This document shows, in pieces, positions 6,932 to 17,670 of a stretch of 20,682 bases of DNA. The position numbers and the translations under genes are program-made. The stretch's first letter is position 1; the number at the start of each line of letters is the position of its first letter. The notes beneath the pieces are model-generated. The model ran no database searches. It was not told the DNA's origin and saw only the letters and a program-made list of their open reading frames with translations. The DNA lies in IMG/VR virus record IMGVR_UViG_3300022725_000201, positions 1-20,682 of that record; one strand, written 5' to 3'. Source of the stretch: a virus.

Positions 6932-6939
6932 TTATAACC
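6862..6939 (-). other. Possible C-terminal remnant of a lost gene
   Basis: Overlapping the dehydrogenase stop in another frame is a stop-to-stop stretch with no start codon, reading GYNASLWKYSINNG followed by TRTSAYDTSNA. Its TAA falls inside the terminator stem, which is where a genuine gene end often lies. The residues (Gly, Asn, Ser, Tyr, Trp) look like the end of a beta-rich virion protein. About 25 codons can stay open by chance, so this is weak. Confidence 0.25.
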
Positions 6940-8242
6940 TCACTATCTTATTACTATCAACGCCTTTATAGGCATTTCTAGTATCAACTACTACTTTTGA
7001 ACTATTTAAAATCATATTATAATCAATATTTGAGTGATTTGTGGTAATAACAGAGCAGTCAAAACTTTGATTTAGCTCCGTACATAATTCAAATTCCTCT
7101 TTTACCATCGAATACATATCTCCTCTTGGAGTCCAAATTTTCTCCACATAAGGATCATAATATAATGTTTCAGCTCCCTCTTGATGAAGAAGCTCAATTA
7201 AATCAAGAGCTGGTGATTCTCTTACATCATCAATGTCTGGTTTGTAAGCAACACCAACAACTAAAACAGTTGATCCATTGATAGGCTTTTTAATCTTATT
7301 TAAAGCAGAACTTATTAGGTTTAATACAAATATTGGCATTTGAGAATTAATCTCTTCTGCAAGAGCAATGAATTTTGAGTTAAATTTCAAAGTTTTTAAT
7401 TTCCAAGCCAAATAATGAGGATCTTGGCTTATACAGTGACCACCGCACCCAGGACCAGGAGTAAACTTCATAAAACCAAAAGGTTTCGTTGAAGCAGCTT
7501 CAATTACTTCCCAAACATTTATATCAAGTTTTTGACAAGCAATTGCTATCTCATTAACAAGCCCAATATTTATCATTCTAAAAGTGTTTTCTAATATCTT
7601 GGTCATTTCAGCCACTTCCGCCGAACTAGCAGGAATTACAGTCTCGACGACATTCTTGTAGAATGCTGTCGCAACCTCTGTCGCCTCTTGTGTCGTTCCT
7701 CCCACAACCTTCGGTGTATTATATACATTATATGTAGGATTGCTTGGATCAATTCTTTCTGGAGAGAAAGCAATTAAAGGTTTTTGAGGTTCATAGTCTT
7801 CTAAAAGTTCAGTAAAGGGACCACTTGTAAATGTAGGATATACTGTTGATTCCAATATAACAAGTTGTTCATTTTTAATAGATAATAAAGTTCCATAGAT
7901 AGTCTCGGCAGCATTTAAAGCAGATGAGACATCAGGGTCTTTTGTTTTATTAAGTGGCGTAGGAACACAAACTAAAATAATATCAACTTCTAAATCATGT
8001 AGATTATACTTTTTAACTGCATTAAGCATATTGCTTTTAACCAGTTTCGAAAGATATGATGAGGGCACATCCCCTATATAGGAAGTGCCCTCGTTAATCT
8101 TATCCACTTTATTTTCATCTAAATCAAATATAGTTGTCCTATATCCTGATTTAGCACATTGAACAGATAAGGGGAGCCCTACATACCCTCCCCCAATTAT
8201 TAAAACCTTAGCAGTCTTATTTTTTATACTTTCTTTCAACAC
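6932..8242 (-). CDS. UDP-N-acetylhexosamine 6-dehydrogenase (nucleotide-sugar dehydrogenase, WbpA/WecC type)
   Basis: The enzyme oxidises C6 of a UDP-sugar in two NAD-dependent steps to a uronic acid used in surface polysaccharides. Visible features, numbered from the chosen start, are the Rossmann loop GGGYVG (17-22), VPTPL after the NAD domain, ESTVYP (131-136), the Lys/Asn pair in TKILENTFR (about K215, N219), and the catalytic cysteine in GCGGHC (C270). GGHC rather than GSC points to UDP-HexNAc rather than UDP-glucose substrates. I chose GTG at 8242 because it gives MLKESIKNKTAKVLIIGGGYVG, the usual family N-terminus, two bases after the upstream stop; a GTG at 8269 would add nine residues. 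Length is normal at 436 aa. In a phage this is an acquired metabolic gene, possibly altering host surface glycans. Confidence 0.92.
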   Translation of the reverse strand: MLKESIKNKTAKVLIIGGGYVGLPLSVQCAKSGYRTTIFDLDENKVDKINEGTSYIGDVPSSYLSKLVKSNMLNAVKKYNLHDLEVDIILVCVPTPLNKTKDPDVSSALNAAETIYGTLLSIKNEQLVILESTVYPTFTSGPFTELLEDYEPQKPLIAFSPERIDPSNPTYNVYNTPKVVGGTTQEATEVATAFYKNVVETVIPASSAEVAEMTKILENTFRMINIGLVNEIAIACQKLDINVWEVIEAASTKPFGFMKFTPGPGCGGHCISQDPHYLAWKLKTLKFNSKFIALAEEINSQMPIFVLNLISSALNKIKKPINGSTVLVVGVAYKPDIDDVRESPALDLIELLHQEGAETLYYDPYVEKIWTPRGDMYSMVKEEFELCTELNQSFDCSVITTNHSNIDYNMILNSSKVVVDTRNAYKGVDSNKIVRL

Positions 8243-8243
8243 T

Positions 8244-9179
8244 TTAATTACCCCACTTCTCAATAACACAATATCCTTCTGCTTTTAAATATTGTGATCT
8301 TATTATTGTATTTAAATATAATTCTCCAAAAGTCTTTTTAACTTTATCATTATAATCATTTAAATCATATATCGTAGGATTTCCGTGATAATAGTTCCCG
8401 TGATAAGAAAATACTATATTATGTTTTATAGAAAACCCATCAACAGTGTAAACGCTTATCTTTGTTTTAATAGGGTATTCTCTTTCAATTTTCCCATAAA
8501 CTTTTTCCATTTTATCAAGCCACTTTTGAGAAGTATTTGATACTTTTTTAGAACATTTGGGACAGTTTTGTCCTATTACTCTTTTATATGGAGAAGTTTT
8601 CCATTTATGTCCTTTACTACATTTCCACCACACTTTTTTATGACTTTTAGGAACAATATCATTAGGAAAAATAGCATTTCTATTATAATCCCACTCTATC
8701 AAAATATTTGGGAATAAAGTAGATAGACAATTATTATTATTTGCTTTTTGATTAACACAATATGGACACCCAGACTTAAGATTTGTTCTACTAACAATAT
8801 TAGTTTTCCAACTAGAATTACATTTATTGCACTTCCACCAAGCAATTCTATTACTCTTTGATGTAACATTATGTGGGCTCATATTTTCATTTTTATTATA
8901 ATCCCATTCTTTTGCTATCTCTGGAAATTTGGCAGACAAACAAGTAAGTTTTGTTGCTTTTTGTCCAACACAATATGGACATCCAGATTTAAGCGTAGTT
9001 CTAACTTTTATACAAGTTTTCCATATATTTAAACATTTCTTACATTTCCACCACGCTTTTTTATTGCTACCATAAGTTAATTTATTGGGATCCAATCCCA
9101 ACTTATTATTTTCTTTCCAGTCCCACTCTTTCATTAAATTTTCATAACTTATCAAATATTTATTTTTAGCAACCATCAT
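8244..9179 (-). CDS. Homing-endonuclease-like protein: three zinc ribbons plus C-terminal nuclease domain
   Basis: The 311-aa protein has three consecutive zinc-ribbon repeats of the 'EWD..N...WWKC..C...W......GCP.C' type, like the DUF4379 zinc-ribbon family (C46/C49/C67/C70; C117/C120/C138/C141; C187/H191/C206/C209). From residue 216 comes a small nuclease-like domain: REYPIKT, VDGF, FSYHGNYYHGNP, GELYLNTIIRSQYLKAEGY and a final EKW. This resembles the VSR/EDxHD-type fold found in phage and giant-virus endonucleases, with Glu, Asp and two His as likely catalytic residues. The same C-terminal domain ends the 372-aa protein upstream. It probably cuts DNA to promote its own spread. Two adjacent ATGs (9179, 9176) are possible starts and the ribosome binding site is weak. 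Confidence 0.85.
   Translation of the reverse strand: MMVAKNKYLISYENLMKEWDWKENNKLGLDPNKLTYGSNKKAWWKCKKCLNIWKTCIKVRTTLKSGCPYCVGQKATKLTCLSAKFPEIAKEWDYNKNENMSPHNVTSKSNRIAWWKCNKCNSSWKTNIVSRTNLKSGCPYCVNQKANNNNCLSTLFPNILIEWDYNRNAIFPNDIVPKSHKKVWWKCSKGHKWKTSPYKRVIGQNCPKCSKKVSNTSQKWLDKMEKVYGKIEREYPIKTKISVYTVDGFSIKHNIVFSYHGNYYHGNPTIYDLNDYNDKVKKTFGELYLNTIIRSQYLKAEGYCVIEKWGN
8251..8543. repeat. Direct repeat copy A: shared endonuclease C-terminal domain
   Basis: This stretch aligns without gaps (constant offset 1321) to 9572-9864, with roughly four bases in five matching by eye. It encodes the shared nuclease domain of the two endonuclease-like genes. The DNA similarity stops where the zinc-finger regions begin, so the duplicated unit is the nuclease domain. 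Confidence 0.8.
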
Positions 9180-9564: not shown

Positions 9565-10683
9565 CTAATCACTCCATTTCTCAATAAGACAATAGCCCTC
9601 TGCTTTTAAATATTGAGACCTTATTATTGTATTTAAATATAATTCTCTAAAAGTCTTTTTAGCTACACTATTATACTCATTAAGATTATATATTTCAGGA
9701 TTCCCATGCCAATAACTTCCGTGGTAAGAAAATATTATATTATGTTTTATAGAAAAGCCATCAACATTATAAGTTCTTTTAATTGTTTTAATAGGGTATT
9801 CTCTTTCAATTTTCCCATAAATCTTTTCCATTTTGTCTAACCATTTTTGAGATGTTTTGGATATTCTGTTAATACAATTAGGGCAACCATTTCCCTTTTT
9901 TGTGCGACAGCAAATATAAGTTTCCCAATTATGGCTACATTTACTACATTTCCACCATACTTTTAATGAACTTCCAAAAACAATATCATCTGGACTTAAA
10001 CTACTATTTTTACTATAATTCCACTCTTTCGCTATATCTGGACATACCGAAGATAAACTATTTTCATCACAAACTTTTCTATTACTACAATAAGGACAGC
10101 CATTGCCTTTTAAATGGTCGTTTGCGATTTGAGAAAATTTTCCATGGATATTACAAATTATAATTATCGGCTTATAACTTCCTTTATATTCGCATAATTT
10201 ATAATCATACTTATAACCGTGAGTTTTTCTCACTTTCTGAATAAACTCTTCACTTGATAGTAATTTCTGCCTACTCAGCTCCTCTAAGGCACATCTTTTA
10301 CAACCATAGCCACTTAAATGACTAATAGGGCGTTGTAAAAACTCTCCGTGAATAGAACATATAATTTTTATCTTAATATGATTTTTTTTATATCTTACTA
10401 AGGAATAGTTGTATTTATTACTATGTACTTTCTTTGCTTCTTTTATAAATTGCTCAGTTGTCTTAGTTTTATTTTTTTTCATTCTTATAAGACCACATTC
10501 TTTACAACCCATTTTACCAGATATATGATGATTTGGTCTAATTAGAAATTCTCCGTGAATAGAACATATAATTATACCTTTTGTTTGATTATTAATATAA
10601 TTAAATTTAGAATAATCATACTTTTTCTTATGTATAATGTTAGCTTTTTTTATAAATTGTTCTAAAGTTTTTCTTTTTACCAT
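9565..10683 (-). CDS. Homing-endonuclease-like protein: three DUF723-type fingers, one zinc ribbon, nuclease domain
   Basis: The 372-aa protein has three repeats of 'KYDYS..Y.......I.C.IHGEF.....HL.G..GC..C', the pattern of DUF723 treble-clef modules (ligands C40/H43/C60/C63, C109/H112/C128/C131, C177/H180/C196/C199). One WWKC..C type ribbon follows (C246/C249/C267/C270), then the same nuclease-like domain as the 311-aa protein (276-372: VDGFSIKHNIIFSYHG, YWHGNP, LYLNTIIRSQYLKAEGY). The finger arrays probably set DNA target choice and the last domain cuts. The start ATG follows GGATAAGGA. The gene ends in tandem stops TAG TAG TAA. It sits between the HTH gene and the 104-aa gene, as expected for an intergenic mobile endonuclease. 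Confidence 0.87.
   Translation of the reverse strand: MVKRKTLEQFIKKANIIHKKKYDYSKFNYINNQTKGIIICSIHGEFLIRPNHHISGKMGCKECGLIRMKKNKTKTTEQFIKEAKKVHSNKYNYSLVRYKKNHIKIKIICSIHGEFLQRPISHLSGYGCKRCALEELSRQKLLSSEEFIQKVRKTHGYKYDYKLCEYKGSYKPIIIICNIHGKFSQIANDHLKGNGCPYCSNRKVCDENSLSSVCPDIAKEWNYSKNSSLSPDDIVFGSSLKVWWKCSKCSHNWETYICCRTKKGNGCPNCINRISKTSQKWLDKMEKIYGKIEREYPIKTIKRTYNVDGFSIKHNIIFSYHGSYWHGNPEIYNLNEYNSVAKKTFRELYLNTIIRSQYLKAEGYCLIEKWSD
9572..9864. repeat. Direct repeat copy B: shared endonuclease C-terminal domain
   Basis: Partner of 8251-8543. The ungapped match covers the codons from the SQKWLDKMEK stretch to the last residues of both proteins. Similarity this high at the DNA level points to a fairly recent duplication, gene conversion, or two arrivals from a common pool. 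Confidence 0.8.
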
Positions 10684-10705: not shown

Positions 10706-11122
10706 CTATTCTTCCTTTTCTTTTAAAATTAATAAAACCTTCTCATCTTTTTTACATATCTTTTTGAGTTTCTTTATGGCTCCACCATATCTTTTTTTTC
10801 CATTCGAATAGTCTATATTACCTTGTAATAATTTATGTACCGTAGTCTGATGAACTCCAAGCTTGTCAGCAATTTGACTTTGTGTTAAACCCTCAAGTCG
10901 TAAAGTAACCACCTCTGTTTGTCTCTTAGTTAATGAAGAATTAATAATTCTAATGACTTCTCCCATTAATTTCTGTCGCAACTCTAAAAATTTATCAGAG
11001 TACTTTGCCATATTAAGTTGACCACGAAGTCCTTGATTTGACTGAAAATCTCCTAAAATATTCGGATCAACAGATATTTCTACTATTTTATACTGATAAG
11101 AATCAGATTTATTTTTTTTCAT
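10706..11122 (-). CDS. Sigma-70 region 4-like HTH protein
   Basis: The 138-aa product has a clear HTH at about residues 65-100: LTKRQTEVVTLRLEGLTQ followed by SQIADKLGVHQTTVHKLLQG, matching the sigma-70 region 4 / LuxR-type pattern. A basic C-terminal tail follows. The N-terminal 60 residues show no sigma region 2. I chose the ATG at 11122, preceded by AAAGAGGGTATTCA, because an upstream in-frame ATG at 11197 would overlap the primase gene and add 25 residues with no recognisable pattern. It could be a phage transcription factor acting on middle or late promoters, or a partial sigma-like protein. Position at the end of the replication cluster fits a regulatory switch, but there is no direct evidence. 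Confidence 0.82.
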   Translation of the reverse strand: MKKNKSDSYQYKIVEISVDPNILGDFQSNQGLRGQLNMAKYSDKFLELRQKLMGEVIRIINSSLTKRQTEVVTLRLEGLTQSQIADKLGVHQTTVHKLLQGNIDYSNGKKRYGGAIKKLKKICKKDEKVLLILKEKEE

Positions 11123-11141
11123 TGAATACCCTCTTTGTATA

Positions 11142-11912
11142 TTATTTCCAGATAGGATTAATATTTTGGTATTCGCTGGCTTCATTAAGCACTTCAATTA
11201 CTTTTGATGGTGTGTGTTTTACAAGAAATTCATCCATATCATTTATATCTTTTGGAAATGGATTTTTAGCCAATAAAGAAGTATGTTCCGTTTTATTTTT
11301 TTCTACTATTTGGCTCGCAGCAACTTGAGTTTCTGGCTCATTATCAAAAATGAGCACTATCTTGTTAGCATATCTTGATAATAAAGCCATTTGTCTTTTA
11401 GAAAAGAATTTTCCACAAGTCGCCACTACATTTTTTAGTCCATTTTGATGAGCAGAAATCACATCAAAATATCCCTCTACAACATATGCCTTTCCAGAAT
11501 TTAAGATTTCTTTTTTAGCAAAGGATAGCCCAAATAAATGCTGCCCCTTTTTATATGGCAAATTCATATATTTTGGTAAGCCCTTTTCTTTTAAAAAAGA
11601 ATTATCTTTTAATGCTCGACCAGCCATAGATATATATCTACCATATACATCCCTAATTGGCATAACCAAATTCCATAGCTTAAATTTACTATAAGAAGCG
11701 TTTTTAATTATACCTGACTTTCTAAGCTCTCTTGGGTCTATTTCCACAAATATTTTTTTCAGATCTTGAGGAAATAGACCCAATTGAAATTTATCAATAT
11801 AATCAGCATTAATTTTTCTTTTAAAAAGGTATTGTATAGTATCTTTATCTTTTAAAAGTCTTTTGTGACACACTTCCGTCACACTTTTATAAATATTGTT
11901 TTTATTACTCAT
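11142..11912 (-). CDS. DnaG-type primase core with TOPRIM domain, no zinc-binding domain
   Basis: The 256-aa protein synthesises RNA primers, by homology. Residues 25-50 (YLFKRKINADYIDKFQLGLFP) match the start of the DnaG catalytic core. Residues 80-130 show LVMPIRDVYGRYISMAGRAL, PKYMNLP and GQHLFGL, typical of the RNA polymerase domain. The TOPRIM part has VVEGYFDVI (E146) and LIFDNEPE (D190, E192), where bacterial DnaG usually has DGD, so the second acidic residue is Glu. Both the N-terminal CHC2 zinc domain and the C-terminal helicase-binding domain are absent. The start overlaps the end of a two-zinc-ribbon gene by eight bases, which may supply the missing zinc domain in trans. Confidence 0.88.
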   Translation of the reverse strand: MSNKNNIYKSVTEVCHKRLLKDKDTIQYLFKRKINADYIDKFQLGLFPQDLKKIFVEIDPRELRKSGIIKNASYSKFKLWNLVMPIRDVYGRYISMAGRALKDNSFLKEKGLPKYMNLPYKKGQHLFGLSFAKKEILNSGKAYVVEGYFDVISAHQNGLKNVVATCGKFFSKRQMALLSRYANKIVLIFDNEPETQVAASQIVEKNKTEHTSLLAKNPFPKDINDMDEFLVKHTPSKVIEVLNEASEYQNINPIWK

Positions 11913-16091: not shown

Positions 16092-16143
16092 ATAACCCCA
16101 GCAAATCTGTGTTGGAAATTAATTGGTGATTTACCGGGGTTAT
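16092..16143 (-). terminator. Hairpin after ssb: terminator or 3' regulatory element
   Basis: On the minus strand the arms ATAACCCC (16143-16136) and GGGGTTAT (16099-16092) pair perfectly. After two mismatches around a G-C pair, GATTT/AAATC adds an inner stem. About 20 bases form the loop. The hairpin starts 11 bases after the ssb stop and is followed by an AT-rich but not pure T tract. The loop contains ATTTCCAACACA, the exact complement of a sequence in the ssb leader. Confidence 0.6.
16108..16119. repeat. Inverted repeat, distal copy (in 3' hairpin loop)
   Basis: The plus strand reads TGTGTTGGAAAT. The minus-strand transcript carries ATTTCCAACACA here, inside the loop of the hairpin after the ssb gene. 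It is the perfect 12-base partner of 16861-16872. Confidence 0.75.
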
Positions 16144-16154
16144 GTTTTATTATA

Positions 16155-16787
16155 TTATAGATCTGTTAAATCATCATCAAATGTAAAGTCTTCATCAGTT
16201 GCTGATGTTTTTACACTTGCCTGCCCAGAAGAAGCTCCTCCGGGAACGGAGAGTCCCAATTGAGTTAGCTTTTCAGCAACTTCCTCGGGAGTTGGAGGTT
16301 GAGTGAATTTTCCTAAATCAACTTTTTCGTTAAATCTCTCAATCATCACTTTTTCCTCTGCTGTTAAATCAGTAGATGGGTATGGAAAAACGGTATAAAG
16401 AGGCTGTGAGCCTTTCGGACCTCTTTTAATATTAATGTCATACTTCTCAATTGGACCCCATTTAGAATTTGTGACCAAATTCTTAATACCAACATAAACC
16501 TGAGTTGAAATTTCAAGGATTTTTGGTATATCAGACTTTCTATCTAAGACTCCAACATACCATCTTGTTTGAACTTTCTCTCCACGCTTCATTAAGGGAC
16601 AATTATGAACTGAACTTTTAACCTTACGAGGTGCTCCGGTTGAGTCTTTCACCCAAGCAACGTGAAATTGAAAGGGCTTTGTGAAAACTCTTACATCGTT
16701 GTCTCCTTCTACCAAATTCATAAAATCACTCGGAGTTGAAACGTCTCCTTCTTCCCATTCTACTTTACCATATTTTACTTCTGCCAT
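16155..16787 (-). CDS. ssb: Single-stranded DNA-binding protein (phage gp32-like)
   Basis: The 210-aa protein has a central beta-rich core, about 30-140, with WVKDSTGAPRKVKSSVHNCP, TRWYVGVLDRKSDIPKILEI and YDINIKRGPKG, as in OB-fold ssDNA-binding proteins of large phages. A flexible Gly/Ser-rich linker (180-195) and an acidic C-terminal tip (DEDFTFDDDLTDL) follow, the tail by which SSBs recruit replication partners. The gp32 zinc knuckle is not seen; only His-Asn-Cys remains. The ATG at 16787 follows AAAAGGAGAACAA. It sits among replication and recombination genes. Its mRNA has unusual structured ends, suggesting post-transcriptional control like that known for T4 gene 32. Identity as an SSB is well supported by layout but not by a database search. 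Confidence 0.78.
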   Translation of the reverse strand: MAEVKYGKVEWEEGDVSTPSDFMNLVEGDNDVRVFTKPFQFHVAWVKDSTGAPRKVKSSVHNCPLMKRGEKVQTRWYVGVLDRKSDIPKILEISTQVYVGIKNLVTNSKWGPIEKYDINIKRGPKGSQPLYTVFPYPSTDLTAEEKVMIERFNEKVDLGKFTQPPTPEEVAEKLTQLGLSVPGGASSGQASVKTSATDEDFTFDDDLTDL

Positions 16788-16873
16788 TTGTTCTCCTTTT
16801 GCCCTGGTACTCCTTGTACATTAATGGGCACTGTTAATTTTTGGCGTTATGCCTTTCTATATTTCCAACACAT
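16788..16873 (-). promoter_or_regulatory. Structured ssb leader
   Basis: Between the preceding stop and the ssb ATG are, in transcript order, TGTGTTGGAAAT (16872-16861, complement of the 3' hairpin loop), a small GGC/GCC hairpin (16853-16843), a hairpin with outer arms TGCCC/GGGCA and inner GTAC/GTAC (16830-16800), and then the ribosome binding site AAAAGGAG. The last hairpin directly abuts the ribosome binding site, so opening and closing it could set ssb translation. A nine-codon mini-frame, including the stop, begins at 16869 (ATGTGTTGG...). Confidence 0.5.
16861..16872. repeat. Inverted repeat, proximal copy (in ssb leader)
   Basis: The plus strand reads ATTTCCAACACA, the exact reverse complement of 16108-16119. 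The two copies flank the ssb gene and would face each other as 5' and 3' ends of its mRNA. Confidence 0.75.
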
Positions 16874-17134
16874 TTATTTATTAAATGTTAAATTTGAAAT
16901 TTTCTCAACCTCACCTAGTGGAATCCACTCCTCTTCTAAGAGTACGTTAGAAGGGAGTTTGTCGACATCATAAGTGTAATAGCCTATTCCATATACGTAG
17001 CCATCCGCTATTTCGAATTTAGGCTTATTTCCATTTTTACTTACTATAATAAATAGCTTATTTTGTTTAACTTTTGTGTCATCAGCATATCCTGTCTGCT
17101 TAAGACAGACCCGATAGATAGGCTTTATTGTCAT
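16874..17134 (-). CDS. Small protein of unknown function upstream of ssb
   Basis: The 86-aa product appears beta-rich, with KQNKLFIIVSKNGNKPKFEI and GYVYGIGYYTYDVD as likely strands; no domain is recognised. I chose ATG at 17134 (MTIKPIYRVCL). A TTG at 17149 in the same frame would add five residues and overlap the upstream gene. GGAAG lies eight bases before the ATG. The stop is followed directly by the ssb leader. Confidence 0.78.
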   Translation of the reverse strand: MTIKPIYRVCLKQTGYADDTKVKQNKLFIIVSKNGNKPKFEIADGYVYGIGYYTYDVDKLPSNVLLEEEWIPLGEVEKISNLTFNK

Positions 17135-17139
17135 TTCAT

Positions 17140-17670
17140 TTACTTCCAATCTGTTTCTCCAAATTTCATTGTATTTTCGTGTCCTGAAGATTCATTAAAC
17201 CCAGAAGAATATTGATGTTTTGTTTCACTCCTAAGCCTTTCTTTCATCATTTGATGAGTTTTTAAAAAGATTTCATATTTTCCATCAAACCATCTTCTGG
17301 CAGCTTCTGCTTTTAAACACCTGTCAACTGCTTCTAAATAATTAGAATTACATTTTGCTTTATGCTCCGCCAAAGAAACAGCCATTCTAGGCTCCTCTTC
17401 TTTGGCTTTTAAAACTGCTTTAGAAAACTCAGCAACTTTATCTGATTTACATTTTTGCTCTACCCACGTTAAATGAGAAAGAATTTCACTACACCTGTCG
17501 GCAGCTCTTAAAAATACCATAGCAAGATTTTCAGCTACTTGTAAAGGAATACTACTGTCTTTTGGTATTTTACTTGCGATGTTTTTAAATTCAGTTAAAT
17601 CTATATTTGAAGGATCAAATTTCTCTAACTCTTCACCCAAAGTAGCAATTTCTTTATCATTATTGTTCAT
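17140..17670 (-). CDS. Helical 176-aa protein, possible recombination mediator
   Basis: The protein is almost all helical with charged heptad-like stretches. Residues about 45-150 run 'AENLAMVFLRAADRCSEILS', 'MAVSLAEHKAKC', 'YLEAVDRCLKAEAARRWFDG' and 'YEIFLKTHQMMKERLR'. This arrangement, with size and position near ssb and recA, recalls T4 UvsY, which loads recombinase on SSB-covered DNA. The similarity is of architecture, not clear sequence identity. The start overlaps the upstream stop and uses AAAGGAG. If the mediator idea is wrong, it remains a helical replication-cluster protein of unknown role. Confidence 0.83.
   Translation of the reverse strand: MNNNDKEIATLGEELEKFDPSNIDLTEFKNIASKIPKDSSIPLQVAENLAMVFLRAADRCSEILSHLTWVEQKCKSDKVAEFSKAVLKAKEEEPRMAVSLAEHKAKCNSNYLEAVDRCLKAEAARRWFDGKYEIFLKTHQMMKERLRSETKHQYSSGFNESSGHENTMKFGETDWK

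Follow-up and report, generated by a model that had tools for sequence, protein, structure and literature searches.

Covariation Points to End-to-End Pairing of the ssb Messenger RNA in a Clade of Uncultivated Phages

The ssb Locus

The window analyzed here, a 20,682-nt stretch of viral DNA (IMG/VR record IMGVR_UViG_3300022725_000201), carries on its minus strand an ssb gene (16155..16787) that encodes a 210 aa single-stranded-DNA-binding protein (SSB) with an acidic C-terminal tail and is preceded by the Shine-Dalgarno sequence AAGGAG (16793..16798). The protein matches phrog_1192, a single strand DNA binding protein family (7.3e-12), and is 32% identical to phage G gp377, which is annotated as an SSB; SSB PHROGs are matched by all 11 proteins of the clade described below. 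Because solved-structure and fold searches with the SSB gave no significant match (the model is mediocre, pLDDT 66), its identity rests on the PHROGs and the phage G annotation. Searches for the Pfam gp32 family likewise returned no significant match for the window SSB (best clade member, 0.013), and among prokaryote genome contigs none with a related SSB was found. Most SSBs of the clade contain an H-x13-C-x4-C-x2-C pattern that recalls the zinc site of T4 gp32, and three of its four residues are lost in the window protein (A, S, C, M).

Several other minus-strand genes of the window are of separate interest. Two related proteins (8244-9179 and 9565-10683) contain DUF4379 treble-clef zinc fingers, one together with DUF723; their C-terminal parts are near-identical and a 104-aa ORF lies between the two genes, which resemble free-standing genes of the mobile-nuclease type that inserted into the cluster of replication genes. 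A possible phage transcription factor, a protein with sigma-70 region 4, is encoded at 10706-11197, where its gene overlaps the primase gene's end, and a complete, phage-borne UDP-glucose/GDP-mannose dehydrogenase is encoded at 6932-8269.

The ssb message, read from the minus strand throughout, is flanked by two segments that could pair with each other as a long-range helix, P1. The leader arm (TGTGTTGGAAAT, 16861..16872) has its first base 2 nt past the stop codon of a small upstream ORF (16874-17149). It is followed by a small local hairpin, GGC-ATAAC-GCC (16843..16853), that is weak by itself in the window, and by a local element termed P3 (CCC-n6-GURC-loop-GYAC-CA-GGG, 16799..16830) situated directly 5' of the Shine-Dalgarno sequence. 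At the other end of the gene, a 3' hairpin (16092..16143) begins 11 nt downstream of the ssb stop codon and consists of a 16-bp apical stem (16143-16128 with 16107-16092) and a 20-nt loop (16127-16108), extendable by an A/T-rich 8-bp base (16154-16147 with 16091-16084). Its predicted energy of -26 kcal/mol (z = -7.8) was equaled in 0 of 200 shuffles. The loop arm of P1 (ATTTCCAACACA, 16108..16119) sits flush with the stem on the 3' side of this loop, so that 12 of the 20 loop bases belong to P1 and 8 nt on the 5' side stay unpaired. The two arms are 12 nt long, 100% complementary, and 741 nt apart; both the exact complement and the well-formed hairpin are thus present as a preliminary description of this DNA had reported them.

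That description also held that a 12-base match between two such short gaps is unlikely to arise by chance. For these particular gaps (86 and 94 nt) the statement stands, since a match of at least 12 was found in only 3 of 3000 dinucleotide shuffles (p ~0.001). It does not carry over to the window as a whole: perfect inverted repeats of 12 nt or longer, spaced by no more than 1 kb, number 6 there against an expected 3.6 ± 1.8. The window sequence by itself is therefore weak evidence for a pairing: when 20 kb are looked over, one sequence could show such a pair by luck, and a comparison with relatives is needed.

Conservation and Covariation of the Pairing

Diverged SSB homologs were gathered by profile searches of IMG/VR. 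A near-identical contig (L001, 99.9%) holds no covariation information, and L089, whose DNA is identical to that of L088, was counted once with it. This left 11 distinct ssb loci (the window and 10 others, at ~48-88% protein identity), each of which has an 11-16 bp contiguous match between the 5' leader and the 3' hairpin loop of the same message, written in different letters. Arm and loop partner read TAGACCACATTGT and ACAATGTGGTCTA in L005, TAGATCGCGTT and AACGCGGTCTA in L006, and TAGACCATGTTGAGAG and TTTTCAACATGGTCTA in L019, and the same arrangement recurs in L081, L082, L023, L083, L086, L087, and L088. Positions are kept as well: the arm precedes the ssb AUG by 85-121 nt in all 11 loci, and its partner is always located in the loop (16-21 nt) of a GC-rich hairpin that closely follows the ssb stop.

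The leader-loop duplexes have predicted energies of -16.4 to -24.2 kcal/mol, against approximately -10 kcal/mol for shuffled leaders, and at each locus only 0-4 of 2000 shuffled leaders equaled the real duplex. Full-length mRNA folds put the cost of opening both arms at 3-12 kcal/mol and the net gain from P1 at -10 to -18 kcal/mol, a figure that ignores the entropy of closing a loop of ~750-850 nt.

Ten distinct arm/partner rows could be aligned without gaps over 14 pairs, in a register set by the pairing itself; an alignment of the hairpins made without the leaders gives the window loop the same register. Standard pairs occupy 91.4% of the cells of this alignment (10 rows by 14 pairs), and 12 of the 14 aligned pairs show double-sided changes, the compensating substitutions in both arms for which the preliminary description had proposed searching relatives. 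The covariation score is 0.56, compared with 0.285 ± 0.035 in shuffled controls, and falls to 0.18 or less, with 31-40% of cells paired, when the strands are slid by 1-3 columns. Over pairs 1-13, the mRNA strand contains ten G·U cells (five of them at pair 1) and zero A·C. Because G·U is stable in RNA and would be A·C on the other strand, the acting molecule is most readily taken to be the sense transcript.

These changes recur on the SSB protein tree, where pairs 3 and 7 changed on both strands three times each, and pairs 6, 8, and 11 once each, with pairing unbroken throughout. Several pairs have been switched on both sides even among the close relatives L006, L081, and L082 (80-88% protein identity). 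The ssb loci with the pairing form one group on this tree with moderate support (49/82); all come from uncultivated contigs of large phages, and 11 loci, or 10 distinct arm/loop rows, are few and mutually related. Relatives that keep ssb and have lost the complementarity, which could have spoken against the proposal, all fall outside this clade and lack the long-loop hairpin as well. One contig of a related lineage (L007, 4892-5690) carries an arm-like leader segment, TAGATCGCA, together with a 14-nt loop that contains GTGGTC and is re-closable by G-U pairs. It is possible that these represent a relic or a precursor of the pairing; the reduced match was left uncounted, being equaled by 565 of 2000 shuffles.

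A pairing that is kept while its letters are rewritten across a clade is the strongest kind of evidence that sequences can offer. On these comparative grounds we consider it highly probable that the RNA pairing is real and under selection, and the proposal that the ssb mRNA pairs end to end is borne out by matched arms at 11 loci and by their covariation; it is the comparison with relatives, and not the single sequence, that argues for the reality of the helix.

Gene Context and Local Leader Elements

In 9 of the 11 loci the stop of the small upstream ORF adjoins or overlaps the arm, at a distance of -2 to +15 nt from its first base. L005 has no such ORF; in L019, L081, and L086 the ORF runs into the arm, and in L019 its stop is located past the arm. 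Since the place of the arm relative to the ssb AUG is kept even where the upstream ORF is missing or overlapping, the arm belongs to ssb. Downstream, a conserved co-directional gene starts 58-94 nt past the ssb stop, with the 3' hairpin in between. Six contigs were scanned for hairpins with loops of 12-24 nt, and ssb was the only gene at which a comparable stem coincided with pairing.

The leader contains local structure of its own. The GGC-ATAAC-GCC hairpin of the window stands where relatives have a longer hairpin, P2 (GATGT...ACATC type). P3 is common to all clade members, includes two covarying pairs, and is the only element in a nested-fold consensus of the leaders alone. A covariance model of P3 (R1) yielded one match per clade genome scanned, always before ssb and nowhere else in those genomes. 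Rfam searches of the window, P3 included, gave no match at gathering score and only chance matches at E up to 5. P3-like CCC...GGG elements are also readable in outgroup leaders, including that of phage G, although none of these is reached by model R1. P3 is thus probably a separate local control element that predates the end-to-end helix, the helix being a later addition.

No equivalent pairing was found in phage G, L002, L008, L009, L011, L014, L015, L027, L029-L051, L092-L095, L120, L122, or L123. Nearly all of these outgroup ssb genes have ordinary small-loop terminators at the same place, and their mRNAs have leader structures with the end-to-end helix absent. In L008, L029, and L030, near-consensus sigma-70-type promoters lie directly upstream of the P3-like element, an arrangement in which the arm would have no room in the transcript; clade members show no evident promoter of this kind immediately 5' of the arm.

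Comparison With Known Systems

Pairing between the ends of a single mRNA has been described in a small number of bacterial messages. In the B. subtilis hbs mRNA, a 14-nt pairing of the 5' and 3' UTRs is reported to protect the leader from RNase Y (Braun et al., 2017, reviewed in PMC7821165), and the hbs 3' UTR shows no conservation in orthologous mRNAs of close relatives (PMC7821165). Both hbs and the phage ssb message encode DNA-binding proteins and join their UTRs by RNA alone. They differ in that the ssb mRNA uses the loop of a GC-rich hairpin as its 3' partner, belongs to a phage gene, and covaries across a clade; RNase protection, reported for the hbs leader, is for phage ssb suggested by analogy.

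The S. aureus icaR mRNA has a 3' UTR of ~390 nt whose UCCCC motif masks the Shine-Dalgarno site, creating a substrate for RNase III (PMC3868564). As in phage ssb, leader and 3' UTR of one mRNA pair over a gene-length distance. Unlike icaR, however, the phage arm lies far enough upstream of the AUG to leave the Shine-Dalgarno site free, and in none of the 11 loci does the 3' UTR pair with the Shine-Dalgarno region. A chemically probed long-range 5'-3' pairing that may delay translation is also known from S. aureus RNAIII, which encodes delta-haemolysin (PMC7821165). RNAIII, in which 7 residues are paired, is a regulatory RNA of dual function, whereas phage ssb is an ordinary mRNA with 11-16 bp.

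Among phage SSB genes, the reference is the T4 gene 32 pseudoknot, an element of ~28 nt wholly inside the 5' leader (PMC535899). T4 and RB69 gene 32 resemble the present messages as phage ssb mRNAs in which local leader structure precedes an A/U-rich stretch ahead of the start codon. P1 joins leader and 3' UTR instead of being an H-type pseudoknot confined to the leader 5' of the ribosome binding site, and the distinction from T4 drawn in the preliminary description holds.

The phage case has its principle in common with RNAIII, icaR, and hbs and is set apart by the hairpin loop, the free Shine-Dalgarno site, the phage ssb gene, and conservation by covariation. Some eukaryotic mRNAs have their ends joined by loop-loop base pairing with a 3' translation enhancer; the likeness lies in the loop-mediated joining of mRNA ends, and no homology is implied.

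Possible Functions of the Closed Message

We assign a probability of about one half to the reading, mechanism included, that in this phage clade the ssb mRNA is joined end to end and that its lifetime or translation is tied to an intact 3' end. In the proposed mechanism, a single-stranded leader segment of 11-16 nt would pair with the 3' half of the hairpin loop (16-21 nt). The resulting pseudoknot-like helix, for which stacking on the hairpin's 3' strand is predicted, would close a gene-length loop of ~750-850 nt. It would have to await transcription of the entire gene and would require the 3' hairpin to be still attached. It may shield the leader from endonuclease or 5'-exonuclease attack in the manner of hbs, in which case the lifetime of the ssb mRNA, and hence its translation, would depend on an intact 3' end.

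Three considerations favor a role in stability. First, the arm does not touch the Shine-Dalgarno site and so would have no direct way of blocking initiation. Second, only about half of the hairpins are followed by a U-tract suited to termination. Third, the best-matched precedent, hbs (14 nt), acts by blocking RNase Y (PMC7821165). Since the arm adjoins the upstream stop in most loci, on a polycistronic mRNA the helix would be pulled apart by ribosomes finishing that ORF, and it is possible that translation of this ORF and the long-range helix are linked. A more specific and rather doubtful extension is that closure serves as a full-length check, whereby only messages with an intact 3' hairpin would be protected or translated and the supply of SSB would be matched to completed transcripts.

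The SSB itself offers an alternative, albeit an unlikely one, in which the helix, the hairpin, P3, and the A-rich linker act together as a composite operator for autogenous control, a distant analog of that of T4 gene 32. SSB bound to the single-stranded arm, loop, or linker would open the closed form, or nucleate on it, and turn translation off. The gene product is an SSB, and the T4 and RB69 proteins repress their own mRNAs through a folded element and an unstructured U/A-rich stretch (PMC535899). The leaders described here similarly combine a structured element with an A-rich linker before the Shine-Dalgarno sequence, and P1 and P3 were found only at ssb in the contigs scanned. However, the window SSB lacks a significant match to Pfam gp32, and the outgroup leaders without an end-to-end helix indicate that the helix is not needed for SSB control generally.

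Somewhat less probable still is control of termination or polarity, in which the leader arm, by pairing with the nascent loop, would alter termination and thereby expression of the downstream conserved gene. The position of the hairpin between ssb and that co-directional gene fits such a role, as do the ordinary terminators at the same place in outgroups and the U-tracts that follow the hairpin in approximately 5 of the 11 loci (L023, L083, L088, L082, and L019). Pairing is nevertheless kept in the window, L005, L006, L081, L086, and L087, where the U-tract is poor, and the arm pairs with the loop rather than with a strand of the stem, so that it would not compete with the hairpin save for 1-2 closing pairs in some members.

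Action in trans seems improbable to us. It would mean that the 3' hairpin is freed as a small RNA, or that two ssb mRNAs pair head to tail, with the leader arm of a second molecule as the target. Cis and trans pairing are indistinguishable from sequence, exposed loops make good pairing seeds, and icaR mRNA dimerizes in vitro (PMC3868564). Pairing in cis, which effective concentration favors, nonetheless fully explains why loop and arm of one gene change together, and the arm lies far from the Shine-Dalgarno site, the usual point at which such small RNAs block translation. Last, it is hardly credible that the match arose by chance or is a DNA-level inverted repeat with no role in RNA: although inverted repeats of this size are about as frequent in the window as expected, this explanation is already contradicted by the duplex energies, the 11 matched loci, the double-sided changes at 12 of 14 pairs and their recurrence on the tree, the fixed position of the arm in both leader and loop, and the G-U bias of the mRNA strand.

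Implications

A 2021 review called the generality of 5'-3' end pairing in bacterial mRNAs open. Bacterial cases have been a handful of single-species examples that are poorly conserved, whereas this phage clade keeps the pairing and rewrites its letters. If closure does serve as a full-length check on the message, it would be, to our knowledge, the first case outside RNA viruses in which covariation across multiple lineages shows 5'-3' closure of an mRNA. The eleven natural variants, and short arm swaps among them, could be used for direct tests of closure in bacteria. For the phages themselves, end-to-end closure of the ssb message through its 3' hairpin loop may represent a mode of control for an SSB gene that is unlike the textbook T4 gene 32 operator.
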